Source: Bacteroidales bacterium (GTDB lineage Bacteria > Bacteroidota > Bacteroidia > Bacteroidales > UBA7960). Taken from it: DNA of 38,936 bases. The stretch lies in contig SLOJ01000043.1 of NCBI GenBank assembly GCA_007132585.1, forward strand, positions 1-38,936. The letters are read 5' to 3'. Of the stretch, positions 29,233-37,807 are shown piece by piece (positions within the stretch are counted from its first letter, which is position 1; each line of letters opens with the position of its first letter). The translations under genes and the position numbers were made by a program. The notes under the pieces were generated by a model that saw only the letters and a list, made by a program, of their open reading frames with translations, had not been told where the DNA came from and did not search any database.

Positions 29233-30294
29233 CTATTTGTGGGTTGCTTTGATATATTCAAGCAATATGGCATTAAGTTCTGATAACCGGGTTTCTGAAA
29301 TGTGTAGTTTTTCATTAATCCGTTGCAATTCAAGGTTCTTTTCTCCGATAGTATGATAAGCCTTATGCGCATCATCGCGTGCAGCTTCAAGTTCTTCTAT
29401 CAATTCTTTCAGCTGCGATACATCCTTGAAAATGCAAAATAACCCGGTAAACCCAATACCTTTGCTATCAGTTTGGGGTGTTATGGTTATACTAACATGC
29501 CTTTTTTTGCCGGGCAAAGTGCATATGGATGTTTCAAGCACAGCTTTATCGCCCGGATTTAATTTACCTGCCACATCCATTATTCTTTTCATTTCATCTG
29601 GTGATGCTATAAATTCTGAGAGATTTTTATCTACCAGGTGTTGTGTTTCAAATATTTCGGTCATGGCATTATTTGTAAATATAAAATCATATGTAAGATC
29701 AATAATAGCAATACCTTCTCCCAGTTTTTCAATCAGGTCACGTAACTTTTCTTCCCTGTCGGTAAGCGCAACAGCCATATGCTTAATTTCTGAAATATCT
29801 TCCCCAACAAGAACAAATGAACAATCGCCCTGCTTTCCGTAAACCGGGCTTAAACTGCCATATAACCAAACCTTTTCTCCATTTTTATGTCTGAGGGAAT
29901 ATTCGCCTCTCCATTTTTTATTGTTCTTTAGAGCATCTTTGATGCCTGGATTTTCAAGTAAATTACAAAGTGCATTGATTCCTGAGTGAAGAGATTTTCC
30001 TATGAGTTCATCCTGTTCATAACCCGTTAGCTTTGTAAATCTTGAATTCAGAAATTCTATATATGAATTTGTATCGGTAATTACAAATAAACTTTCACTC
30101 TGGTTGATCGCTTCATACAACTTGGCAATAGTTTGATTCTGGTAGTTCAGTTTTTGCTTCAGACTTGCATTTTGCTCATTTTCGTCTGAATGCCAGCCGT
30201 TATCAAATTGCATATTACCAAAGTTTGCGGATGCTTTTACTTTCCGAGAAGGTTTCGCTGTTTTTTCCTTAATATATAATGTATTCCTTTTCAT
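29233..30294 (-). CDS. PAS-PAS coiled-coil sensor protein lacking an output domain
   Basis: The 353-residue cytoplasmic protein has a basic N-terminus, a PAS domain with PAC segment (about 60-170: YIEFLNSRFTKLTGYEQDEL, then VLVGEDISEIKH), a second PAS (about 185-300: GEGIAIIDLTYDFIFTNNAM, then CIFKDVSQLKE), and a terminal coiled coil. The coil ends in ETRLSELNAI, a stretch that in many Bacteroidota histidine kinases runs straight into the phospho-acceptor helix, but here the protein stops after 11 more residues. No HisKA, HATPase, GGDEF or other effector is present, and none was found in other frames downstream. It is divergent from the receptor cyclase gene and may work with it or be a truncated kinase. 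Confidence 0.85.
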   Translation of the reverse strand: MKRNTLYIKEKTAKPSRKVKASANFGNMQFDNGWHSDENEQNASLKQKLNYQNQTIAKLYEAINQSESLFVITDTNSYIEFLNSRFTKLTGYEQDELIGKSLHSGINALCNLLENPGIKDALKNNKKWRGEYSLRHKNGEKVWLYGSLSPVYGKQGDCSFVLVGEDISEIKHMAVALTDREEKLRDLIEKLGEGIAIIDLTYDFIFTNNAMTEIFETQHLVDKNLSEFIASPDEMKRIMDVAGKLNPGDKAVLETSICTLPGKKRHVSITITPQTDSKGIGFTGLFCIFKDVSQLKELIEELEAARDDAHKAYHTIGEKNLELQRINEKLHISETRLSELNAILLEYIKATHK

Positions 30295-30639: not shown

Positions 30640-33600
30640 TTGAAATTTGTTGTAAAACATTACCAAAGAACACTGATCCTTTGCATTCTGGTTTTCATTG
30701 GCTTACATCAGCCTCTTATGGCCCAGCCCGGTATACCTACTATGATGAATTATCATCACTCGGAATACAGGGCTGAAACACAAAACTGGTCTGTTGTACA
30801 AGATAAAAGAGGTTTGATATATGTGGCCAATTTAAGCGGAGTACTGGAGTATGATGGCAATCACTGGAGGTTGATTTCGCTTCCGGGAAATAAATTTGTT
30901 ACATCACTTGGTATTGATGAACAAGGTATTATTTATGCAGGAAGCCATGGCGAGTTCGGCTATCTGAAACCCGACTCAAAAGGATCTCTTCAATATCAAT
31001 CGCTTCTTCACCTTTTCCCTGCCGAGCACCGAGATTTTTCTTATATATGGCAAATTAATAATACATCAGAGGGTATATTCTTTTCCAATTATGATAACCT
31101 GTTCCGTCTTAAAAACGACACTGTTACCGTATGGACATACAGCAGATACAGTAATTTTTTCACTATAGATGATAAAGTCCTTGTATATGATCATGATAAC
31201 CCTTCACGTCTTCTCTATGTAAAAGGTGATTCACTAAAAAATATTCCAGGAGGTGAGTTACTTTCCAGTTACAGAATCAGAGGCATTTATCCATTCGACT
31301 CTGAAAATATTCTGATATATTCTGATAATAAAGGCTTTGCCAGTATCCCTAATCCGTTTAAAAATAAAGATAAAGATTTGATCGCAAAACCCTTGCCCAA
31401 TCAAGGTGTGTTTAACTTTCTGAATCAAAACAGGCTTACCTACGGCAAAAGGCTTAGGAACGGACATTACGCTTTTGCAACGCTTAAGGCAGGTATTATT
31501 ATAATGGATAATACAGGAAGTGCAGTTAGTATTCTAAACAGAAACATGGGGTTACAAAATGAAACAGTAAATTTTTTATATGAAGATCGTGATGAAGTGC
31601 TGTGGCTGGCACTCGACAATGGAATAAGTACGGCAAACATAAATCTTCCAGTTCAATTTTGGAGCAGAAAGTCGGGCATTAAAGGATCTGTGTTGAGTAT
31701 TACCGAATTTGAAAACCATATATATGCTGGCACATGGCAAGGACTTTACAAAATGGATAAAAATCATAAGCTTGATGATATGATTTCATCAGAAACCGGC
31801 TATTTGTCAGGCAGCTTTAAAAATACTTCGAACATCAATGGCATTACCTGGCACCTGAATACTCTAAATTCGGGAAATAGAAATACAGGTTTATTGGTGT
31901 CGGGAAGCGACGGACTTATCTATATTGACCGCAATCATAATCCCATGGTTATTGAAAAAGGATATTTTTACTTCAGTCTTCAATCGGAAGAGTTTCCGGA
32001 ATTTATTCTGGCCGGGGGGTCTGAGGGATTATTTGTTTATCATATGCCGGTTAAAAACAATTCTTCTATCAAAAAGATTGCCGAATTTCCTGATTTCAAA
32101 TATCTGGAACCTTATAAAATAACTGAAGGGCAAAATCTTACATTCTGGATATCTCATCGTAGCGATGGCATTTCGCGTTTGAGTTTGTCCGGCCTTTTAT
32201 CTGCAGTTAACTTAACAGCCGATGATATAACAGAGAATAACAAAGCTATTGAAGTAAAACATTTTAACTCAGATCAGGGCTTACCCGTAAATGTTAAAAT
32301 AGAAGCATTTAATTACGGTAATAAAGTTTTCTTTCTCACAGGAAAAGGTATAATGTCAGTTTCAGAAAACCGTTCAGATAAAAGTGAGTATTTTAAAAGT
32401 ATAAATTTTTTTACTGATTTTATTTTAAAAAAATTTGTCTCGGTAAGATTTATCAAAACCTGCCATAATAATTGCTTATGGATGCAAATTTATGATAAAC
32501 ACTCAAGAGAAAAGAGTGTTGTCCAGCTAAGTTATGACCGTAACAAAAACCATTTCATATTAAATAACAATCGTTTCAATTTTCTTTCCGGACAAACGGT
32601 TGATGATATTTTCATTGATAAAACAAACAATGCATCGTGGTTTGCCGCCGATGATTATATTTACAGGTATGAGATTGATGAAAATTTTCAGCGAAATAAT
32701 TTCAAATGTTTGATCCGGAACATTGCGGTGAACAAAAAAACATATTTCGGCGGTAAAATCAATAGATCTCAAAACAAAATCAAAATTTCCAACAGAGCCA
32801 AGTCTGGAATTTCAGGGTTTTCACATCATCAAAGTCACCTTGAGTTTAGTTATGCTGTAACAGATTATTTTTTCCCACAACATACGGTCTTTTCCAGTAA
32901 ACTAAAAGGACATGAAAAAAACTGGACACCATGGACCAATCAATCATCAAGAGAGTTTAATAACCTAAATCCGGGTAATTATATTTTCATGGTAAGAGCC
33001 AGAGATGCCTTCGGAAATGAAAGCACAATGGACTCCTTTAGTTTTCAGATCTTCAAGCCCTGGTATGTAACCAATCTGGCATACTTTACTTATTTTCTGC
33101 TGGCTGCAGGGCTTATAGTAATCTTATTTTGGATTATAAACAAACAATTGTTAAAAATCAAATACAAACTGGAAAGGAATATAAAGGAAAGAACATCTGA
33201 AATAGAAGAAAAGCAATATCAGCTTAAAGAAGAAATGAAAAGATCAGACCAGCTTCTTAAAAATATTCTGCCTCTGCAGATTGCTGAAGAACTTAAAAAC
33301 ACAGGAAATGTAAGACCTCAGTATTACGATCTTGCTACCATAATGTTTATGGATTTTAAGGATTTCTCAAAAATATCGCAGTTCATTAACCCCCTTAAGC
33401 TTATCAATGAGTTAAATGAGAGCTTCATTAAATTTGATGAGATTGCACATAAACATCGTCTTGAAAAAATCAAAACCATTGGCGATGCCTACATGTGTGC
33501 AGGAGGTATTCCTGAACCCAATATCACCAACCCATTTGATACTATTATTGCTGCTTTTGAAATATTGAATTACTTAAAAGTTGCTGAAGAAAATCAATGG

Positions 33601-33966
33601 CTGAGTGATGTAAGAATTGGAATTCATACCGGAGAGATAATGGCCGGAATAATTGGGAGAAATAAATTTGCCTATGATATTTGGGGTGAAGCTGTTAATA
33701 CAGCCAGCCGAATGGAAACATCGGGTGAAGCAGGTAAAATAAATATTTCGGGTGAGACCTACAGACTGGTGAAGAATTTTTTCGATTGCGAGTATCGTGG
33801 CAAATTGGAAGCAAAGCATAATAACCAGTTTGATATGTATTATGTTATCCGAATTAAGAAAGAGTTTAGCAAAGACGAAGATGGTACTTTTCCAAACGAT
33901 ATGTTTTATGAAAAACTAAATGATTTTTTGAGTATGGGTAAAAAACAAAAGATCAACTTACAATAA
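30640..33966 (+). CDS. receptor-type adenylate cyclase: periplasmic propeller, Y_Y_Y domain, membrane helix, class III cyclase
   Basis: The 1108-residue protein has a signal peptide (ends near LMAQ, residue 29), a periplasmic two-component-regulator-type beta-propeller (about 45-700, e.g. FLYEDRDEVLWLALDNGIS), a Y_Y_Y domain (about 728-803, ending LNPGNYIFMVRARDAFGNES), one membrane helix (about 812-836), a signalling coiled coil with LLKNILPLQIAEELK, and a class III cyclase domain (about 895-1090). Catalytic residues are complete: metal Asp905 and Asp949, adenine-selecting Lys945 and Asp1013, transition-state Asn1020 and Arg1024. Lys/Asp rather than Glu/Cys argues for ATP as substrate. The sensor half is that of hybrid two-component carbohydrate sensors, here joined to cAMP synthesis. 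The start is TTG 30640; no ATG is available upstream in frame. Confidence 0.93.
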   Translation: MKFVVKHYQRTLILCILVFIGLHQPLMAQPGIPTMMNYHHSEYRAETQNWSVVQDKRGLIYVANLSGVLEYDGNHWRLISLPGNKFVTSLGIDEQGIIYAGSHGEFGYLKPDSKGSLQYQSLLHLFPAEHRDFSYIWQINNTSEGIFFSNYDNLFRLKNDTVTVWTYSRYSNFFTIDDKVLVYDHDNPSRLLYVKGDSLKNIPGGELLSSYRIRGIYPFDSENILIYSDNKGFASIPNPFKNKDKDLIAKPLPNQGVFNFLNQNRLTYGKRLRNGHYAFATLKAGIIIMDNTGSAVSILNRNMGLQNETVNFLYEDRDEVLWLALDNGISTANINLPVQFWSRKSGIKGSVLSITEFENHIYAGTWQGLYKMDKNHKLDDMISSETGYLSGSFKNTSNINGITWHLNTLNSGNRNTGLLVSGSDGLIYIDRNHNPMVIEKGYFYFSLQSEEFPEFILAGGSEGLFVYHMPVKNNSSIKKIAEFPDFKYLEPYKITEGQNLTFWISHRSDGISRLSLSGLLSAVNLTADDITENNKAIEVKHFNSDQGLPVNVKIEAFNYGNKVFFLTGKGIMSVSENRSDKSEYFKSINFFTDFILKKFVSVRFIKTCHNNCLWMQIYDKHSREKSVVQLSYDRNKNHFILNNNRFNFLSGQTVDDIFIDKTNNASWFAADDYIYRYEIDENFQRNNFKCLIRNIAVNKKTYFGGKINRSQNKIKISNRAKSGISGFSHHQSHLEFSYAVTDYFFPQHTVFSSKLKGHEKNWTPWTNQSSREFNNLNPGNYIFMVRARDAFGNESTMDSFSFQIFKPWYVTNLAYFTYFLLAAGLIVILFWIINKQLLKIKYKLERNIKERTSEIEEKQYQLKEEMKRSDQLLKNILPLQIAEELKNTGNVRPQYYDLATIMFMDFKDFSKISQFINPLKLINELNESFIKFDEIAHKHRLEKIKTIGDAYMCAGGIPEPNITNPFDTIIAAFEILNYLKVAEENQWLSDVRIGIHTGEIMAGIIGRNKFAYDIWGEAVNTASRMETSGEAGKINISGETYRLVKNFFDCEYRGKLEAKHNNQFDMYYVIRIKKEFSKDEDGTFPNDMFYEKLNDFLSMGKKQKINLQ

Positions 33967-34076: not shown

Positions 34077-34712
34077 ATGGACTTAAAAAAACTTAGACCC
34101 ATAGTATTAAATAAGCTCAAAAAAGAGTTGAACCCGAATCTCTATTATCACAATTATCAGCATACACTGGATGTATGCGAGTCGGTTGACAGACTTGCCG
34201 AAATTGAAGAGATTAAAGGCGAAGAACTTGTAACCTTACGCACAGCTGCTTTGCTTCATGATACCGGTTTTATCTGGCAATATGAAAACAACGAAGAAAT
34301 TGCCTGCAAATATGGGATGGAGATATTGCCTGATTTCGATTACTCCCCAGGCCAGATAGAACACATCTGCGCTATGATCATGGCAACACAGATACCACAA
34401 AATCCAAAAGATAAATTGGGTATGATACTTTGTGATGCTGACCTTGATTATATTGGTCGAGGAGATTTCTTTATAACTGCTTTAAGATTACACCGCGAAT
34501 GGAGCGAAAACAGCAGCCAGAAAATTACCTTTAAGAACTGGTATATCAAACAACAAAATTTTATTTTACAACATGAATATTTCACCCAGGGGGCAAAAGA
34601 TCTCAGAAATGGCACCAAACAACATAATTTGTCACAGATAAAAGAACTTTTAAACCTCCTTGAATCAACCAATACTGAAACTGCTGACAACCTTTCCGGA
34701 GTTCTTAAGTAA
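34077..34712 (+). CDS. HD-domain phosphohydrolase, candidate cyclic-nucleotide phosphodiesterase
   Basis: The 211-residue soluble protein has an HD fold: YHNYQHTLDV (His25, His29), LLHDTGF (His61-Asp62), His96, and the late Asp120 in LCDADLDYIG. The YHNxxHxxDV start is like the metal-site motif of class I cyclic-nucleotide phosphodiesterases. The gene lies 110 bases after the adenylate cyclase on the same strand, so cAMP hydrolysis is an attractive but unproven role; (p)ppGpp or other nucleotide hydrolysis is also possible. Family assignment is firm, substrate is inference. Confidence 0.85.
   Translation: MDLKKLRPIVLNKLKKELNPNLYYHNYQHTLDVCESVDRLAEIEEIKGEELVTLRTAALLHDTGFIWQYENNEEIACKYGMEILPDFDYSPGQIEHICAMIMATQIPQNPKDKLGMILCDADLDYIGRGDFFITALRLHREWSENSSQKITFKNWYIKQQNFILQHEYFTQGAKDLRNGTKQHNLSQIKELLNLLESTNTETADNLSGVLK

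Positions 34713-34806: not shown

Positions 34807-37807
<3,001 letters not shown>

Follow-up and report, generated by a model that had tools for sequence, protein, structure and literature searches.

In an early census, the first four Bacteroidetes genomes were without adenylate cyclases, and the authors asked whether this absence would last (PMC1183210). Class III cyclases are now found in about half of the phylum genomes that we sampled (204 of 396), and some of them are receptors that carry an HD domain themselves or have one coded next to them. The closest described systems each share some parts with the receptor cyclase considered here. Hybrid two-component systems (HTCS) such as BT4663, BT3049 and BT4673 have in common with it a signal peptide, periplasmic propellers followed by a Y_Y_Y domain, and a single transmembrane (TM) helix. 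By contrast, the receptor cyclase lacks the histidine kinase, the receiver and the AraC domain, its output is a class III cyclase, and it lies outside any PUL context. In bacterial class IIIa cyclases, as in animal receptor guanylate cyclases (the ANP receptor, for example), one finds the same succession of sensor, membrane anchor, signalling helix and C-terminal homodimeric cyclase. The present protein departs from these in its HTCS-type sensor, in its adjacent or fused HD partner, in its universal stress protein (Usp) and in its ATP-type residues. Pycsar, which combines the cyclase PycC with PycTM or PycTIR, also uses a class III-type cyclase, and relatives of our HD protein are fused to PycTM; the present system differs by its receptor input, its ATP-type residues and a locus devoid of Pycsar effectors. 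We found no published description of the cyclase, HD and Usp set, or of a propeller cyclase, in the open literature; most subscription journals fall outside that search, which makes novelty uncertain. A search of NCBIfam gave no specific match.

The window, that is, the whole stretch of DNA analysed, spans 38,936 nucleotides of a Bacteroidales bacterium (contig SLOJ01000043.1, assembly GCA_007132585.1). Its receptor gene comprises the following features.

30640..33966, + strand: predicted receptor adenylate cyclase gene (open reading frame of 1108 aa, TTG start; Pfam; 21-row alignment A3)
30640..30726, + strand: predicted signal peptide, residues 1-29, MKFVVKHYQRTLILCILVFIGLHQPLMAQ (hydropathy peak 11-29)
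30724..33075, + strand: predicted periplasmic sensor, residues 29-812, HTCS-type propellers and Y_Y_Y (AlphaFold2, Foldseek)
32866..33051, + strand: Y_Y_Y domain, residues 743-804 (PF07495, E 5.5e-9)
33082..33138, + strand: predicted single TM helix, residues 815-833 (hydropathy 2.36)
33151..33294, + strand: putative signalling helix or cyclase transducer region, residues 838-885 (match to the end of HNOBA; helix lengths)
33316..33846, + strand: catalytic domain of class III cyclase type, residues 893-1069 (PF00211, E 1.3e-46; alignment to solved adenylate cyclases)

Architecture of the receptor and its distribution

By every sequence criterion, the assignment of this gene as a receptor adenylate cyclase is well supported. 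The first-pass annotation had proposed a chain made of Reg_prop, Y_Y_Y and Guanylate_cyc domains, and a Pfam search of the open reading frame bears this out: the matches to Reg_prop (E 8.7e-6), Y_Y_Y, the C-terminal helix of HNOBA (residues 838-885, E 3.5e-5) and Guanylate_cyc (PF00211, 158.9 bits for a cut-off of 21.9) all exceed the curated cut-offs. Hydropathy displays two hydrophobic segments, at residues 11-29 and 815-833. The same Pfam analysis finds no histidine kinase, receiver or AraC-type DNA-binding domain in the chain and, judged by its domain content, the protein is not an HTCS.

The sensor had been likened to the periplasmic half of HTCS proteins, and structure prediction agrees. 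Modelled with AlphaFold2 from 13 sequences, residues 29-812 reach a mean pLDDT of 81, and the best matches of the model in the PDB, as found by Foldseek, are BT4663 (4a2m/4a2l), BT3049 (3v9f) and BT4673 (3ott), with E values of 8e-30 to 7e-25. The family profile of the receptor cyclase matches the same three sensors by sequence. Relatives of the sensor that are not linked to a cyclase end in PAS and histidine kinase domains, or in a LuxR domain; the sensor has therefore been swapped between outputs, and the view that a cyclase stands here in place of a kinase holds. This architecture is real, but it is not exceptional: across 198 genomes of the order Bacteroidales, the window's own and 197 others, a search recovered it in 20 of these others. 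The sensor-cyclase form is widespread, not unique.

The sensor had been compared with carbohydrate-sensing hybrid systems. As had been stated, Pfam identifies no PUL genes among the flanking genes scanned. A carbohydrate ligand is unsupported, because the receptor cyclase is the sole Y_Y_Y protein of the genome and SusD is nearly absent from it (two matches in the whole genome, both weak). Upstream, a divergent gene (29233-30294) codes for two PAS domains and a coiled coil, with no recognisable output domain.

HD and Usp genes beside the cyclase

The first-pass annotation overlooked two conserved genes located immediately downstream.

34077..34712, + strand: phosphohydrolase of the HD type (211 aa) that may act as a cyclic-nucleotide phosphodiesterase (PF01966; fused to the cyclase in relatives)
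34807..35658, + strand: universal stress protein in tandem form (283 aa) that may receive or buffer the nucleotide (PF00582, E 3.3e-26)

When the genes of the window were compared by BLAST with the 20 relatives that share the sensor-cyclase architecture, the HD domain was found fused to the C-terminus of the cyclase in 17 and coded by an adjacent gene in the other three, while in 13 the tandem Usp adjoined either the HD gene or that of the cyclase, in two different arrangements. Hardly any conservation of the remaining window genes was seen near the relatives' cyclases, so that the linkage of cyclase, HD and Usp is not a matter of general synteny.

Larger samples extend this picture. Among the best 80 HD loci retrieved by an alignment scan of named genomes, 32 are cyclase fusions, 19 have a cyclase within two genes (some of these, as in L061, being of a distant HAMP-linked type) and 29 have none. 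All 29 HD-bearing genomes searched in the named set hold a class III cyclase, 28 of the 29 without one beside the HD gene. In the same 80 loci, Usp accounts for 37 of 290 near genes as against 2 of 396 farther ones (Fisher 1e-12) and, in the phylum sample, each of the 23 genomes that hold a close HD homologue also has a cyclase, as against 181 of the 373 others (Fisher 1.5e-7), these association statistics being uncorrected for kinship of the genomes. Seen from the Usp side, 26 of the best 30 homologues in the order stand beside a sensor cyclase or a cyclase-HD fusion. Usp genes are mostly divergent and upstream of the fused forms, mostly co-directional and downstream in the split forms, and usually within 150 bases; the existence of two arrangements argues for selection on the association itself. 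A quick tree of the HD family gathers most fused forms in a single group (47 rows, support 93) and puts the window among 30 split forms that group together with support 98; Usp and the propeller sensor are found in both groups. Finally, in four near relatives (L057, L058, L059 and L060), HD and Usp are followed by a gene of the size of a DNA ligase and no cyclase precedes HD. Cyclase, HD and Usp are therefore not obligatory in cis.

A candidate cyclic-nucleotide module

Conservation of this set across the phylum suggests a signalling module that has not been described. We consider it rather probable that the locus codes for a single-pass receptor adenylate cyclase together with its own HD degrading enzyme and a Usp that possibly receives or buffers cAMP. 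In this scheme, a periplasmic ligand would bind the HTCS-type propeller and Y_Y_Y sensor, and the signal would cross the membrane in the single TM helix and travel along the signalling helix, as a parallel coiled coil, to align the cyclase homodimer, which would then convert ATP into cAMP. The HD hydrolase, coded by the next gene here and fused to the cyclase in most relatives, would destroy the nucleotide near its site of synthesis, and the tandem Usp, downstream here and divergent in relatives, may receive or buffer it. The analysis shows the domains, the catalytic residues, the sensor fold, the fusion or adjacency of HD and the adjacency of Usp. That the product is cAMP, that HD is a phosphodiesterase and that ligand is coupled to activity are inferred, and any ligand is speculative. 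The HD domain fused or adjacent in 20 of 20 relatives, with a Usp neighbour in 13 of 20, counts in favour of this reading, as does, for the HD protein as phosphodiesterase, the fusion of its relatives to the cyclic-nucleotide effector PycTM. The pairing of other HD relatives with YitT proteins counts against it. If HD cleaves cAMP and Usp binds it, the phylum would possess a CRP-independent cAMP pathway. The stronger proposal of a self-contained module that is common in Bacteroidota, with receptor cyclase as maker, HD phosphodiesterase as breaker and Usp as receiver, which would replace the CRP pathway, is doubtful.

The genome at hand (2.38 Mb, 84% complete) contains two class III cyclases. 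The second (L002, contig C107, 1477-3498) has a 7TMR-DISM membrane domain, and neither an HD nor a Usp gene is seen beside it in the short flanking stretch. The first-pass annotation had suggested a search for CRP/FNR genes: no HTH_Crp_2 domain scores above cut-off in the assembled 84%, and such a gene could lie in the missing 16%. Two proteins have a cNMP-binding domain. In one (L003, contig C196, 1-1863), it is fused to a lyase of the aspartase/fumarase type and its phosphate-binding cassette, inspected by eye, keeps the Glu and has His where Arg is expected. In the other (L004, contig C209, 1348-2859), whose gene follows those of an anion transporter and a response regulator, it is fused to a histidine kinase and the cassette, again by eye, has neither the Glu nor the Arg of cAMP binders. 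With no CRP above cut-off and the Glu/Arg pair incomplete in both proteins, CRP was rejected as the receiver of cAMP.

A role for the tandem Usp as cAMP receiver or buffer is speculative. Its first domain has a glycine loop, Gx2Gx8GS, in nearly all of 13 aligned module members, where ATP-binding Usps usually have Gx2Gx9G(S/T); the second domain has no such loop. It might instead serve in general stress or in ATP sensing, being co-regulated with the cyclase and binding no cyclic nucleotide; we hold this to be a serious contender if somewhat short of probable. In keeping with this, MJ0577 and further Usps from outside the mycobacteria are its closest solved structures, and the cAMP-binding mycobacterial Usp 5AHW is absent from its PDB sequence matches up to E 10. 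Rv1636 and MSMEG_3811 share the Usp fold and, like the window protein, belong to genomes that make a cyclic nucleotide (here by prediction), whereas the window Usp is a tandem form and not a sequence match to them. Against a mere stress function speaks the tight and repeated adjacency in two arrangements, along with precedents: mycobacterial Usp proteins that bind cAMP are known (PMC11107214), and KdpD has a Usp domain that binds c-di-AMP (PMC4686210).

The HD protein is probably a cyclic-nucleotide phosphodiesterase, this being its likeliest function. The residues of its metal site (His25, His29, His61-Asp62 and Asp120) are invariant across 75 sequences, and they are common to other HD hydrolases as well. 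With class I phosphodiesterases (PDE4, PDE5, PDE9, PDEB1), it shares the YHNxxH...HD...D arrangement and the overall helical fold, but it is about 200 residues long as against about 320, and with 14.5 bits it falls under the PDEase_I cut-off of 24.8 in Pfam, as does the best relative tested (19.9). One may therefore ask whether, next to a genuine receptor cyclase, HD is a YpgQ-like nucleotide (pyro)phosphohydrolase that removes other nucleotides, its link to the cyclase being indirect. The sub-threshold PDEase_I score goes in this direction, and so do the best PDB matches by sequence and by fold, which are the HD hydrolases 2pq7, 2pjq and YpgQ: the profile matches 2pq7 at E 1.2e-7 and class I phosphodiesterases at E 1.4e-3. 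We nevertheless regard this as unlikely, for several observations tell against it. The model (pLDDT 95.8) matches HD hydrolases first, then PDE5, PDE4 and PDE10 with similar scores, and these next-best matches are almost all cNMP phosphodiesterases. Furthermore, HD co-occurs strictly with cyclases, and its relatives are repeatedly fused both to class III cyclases and, at their C-terminus, to PycTM, the membrane effector of Pycsar (E 2.5e-36; L160, L164). More widely, the phylum has many HD frames of similar length, and the genomes that hold them often lack a PF00211 cyclase. Another branch of the family is fused or adjacent to YitT/DUF2179 membrane proteins (L100, L140, L119, L122). In the Chryseobacterium locus L122, the YitT-linked HD lies beside several class III cyclases.

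Catalytic domain and signalling helix

The six catalytic residues expected for ATP had been reported, and all are present. Aligned to solved adenylate cyclases and to the 20 relatives, the domain has the metal residues Asp905 and Asp949, the adenine-selecting residues Lys945 and Asp1013, and the transition-state residues Asn1020 and Arg1024, with Lys1059 also present. Among class III cyclases, a pair such as Lys945 and Asp1013 is of the adenylate type. A single chain holding every catalytic residue is expected to form a homodimer with two active sites. The domain might still be a guanylate cyclase, or inactive, insofar as sequence predicts the specificity of bacterial class III cyclases imperfectly and one receptor cyclase relative (L044, 4557-8243) carries Ser at the position of the first metal Asp and may be inactive or heterodimeric. 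This is very unlikely for the window protein, where the metal, base-selecting and transition-state residues are complete and nearly invariant among the relatives. An antiviral, Pycsar-like pairing of cyclase and effector is more improbable still, for while the cyclase matches the PycC model of PADLOC at E 9.4e-14 and HD relatives are fused to PycTM, neither PycTM nor PycTIR occurs among the flanking genes scanned (membership was rejected for this lack of effectors), the periplasmic receptor fits an external ligand, Lys945 and Asp1013 are ATP-type residues, and the partners, HD and Usp, have no match in PADLOC.

The segment joining membrane and cyclase offers a last comparison. Over the stretch measured, the helix is 22, 29 or 36 residues long, in steps of seven, and the helix of the window protein exceeds that of most HD-fused relatives by one heptad. 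Lengths that differ by exact heptads are expected of a parallel coiled-coil transducer, of which the S-helix is an example (PMC1592074).
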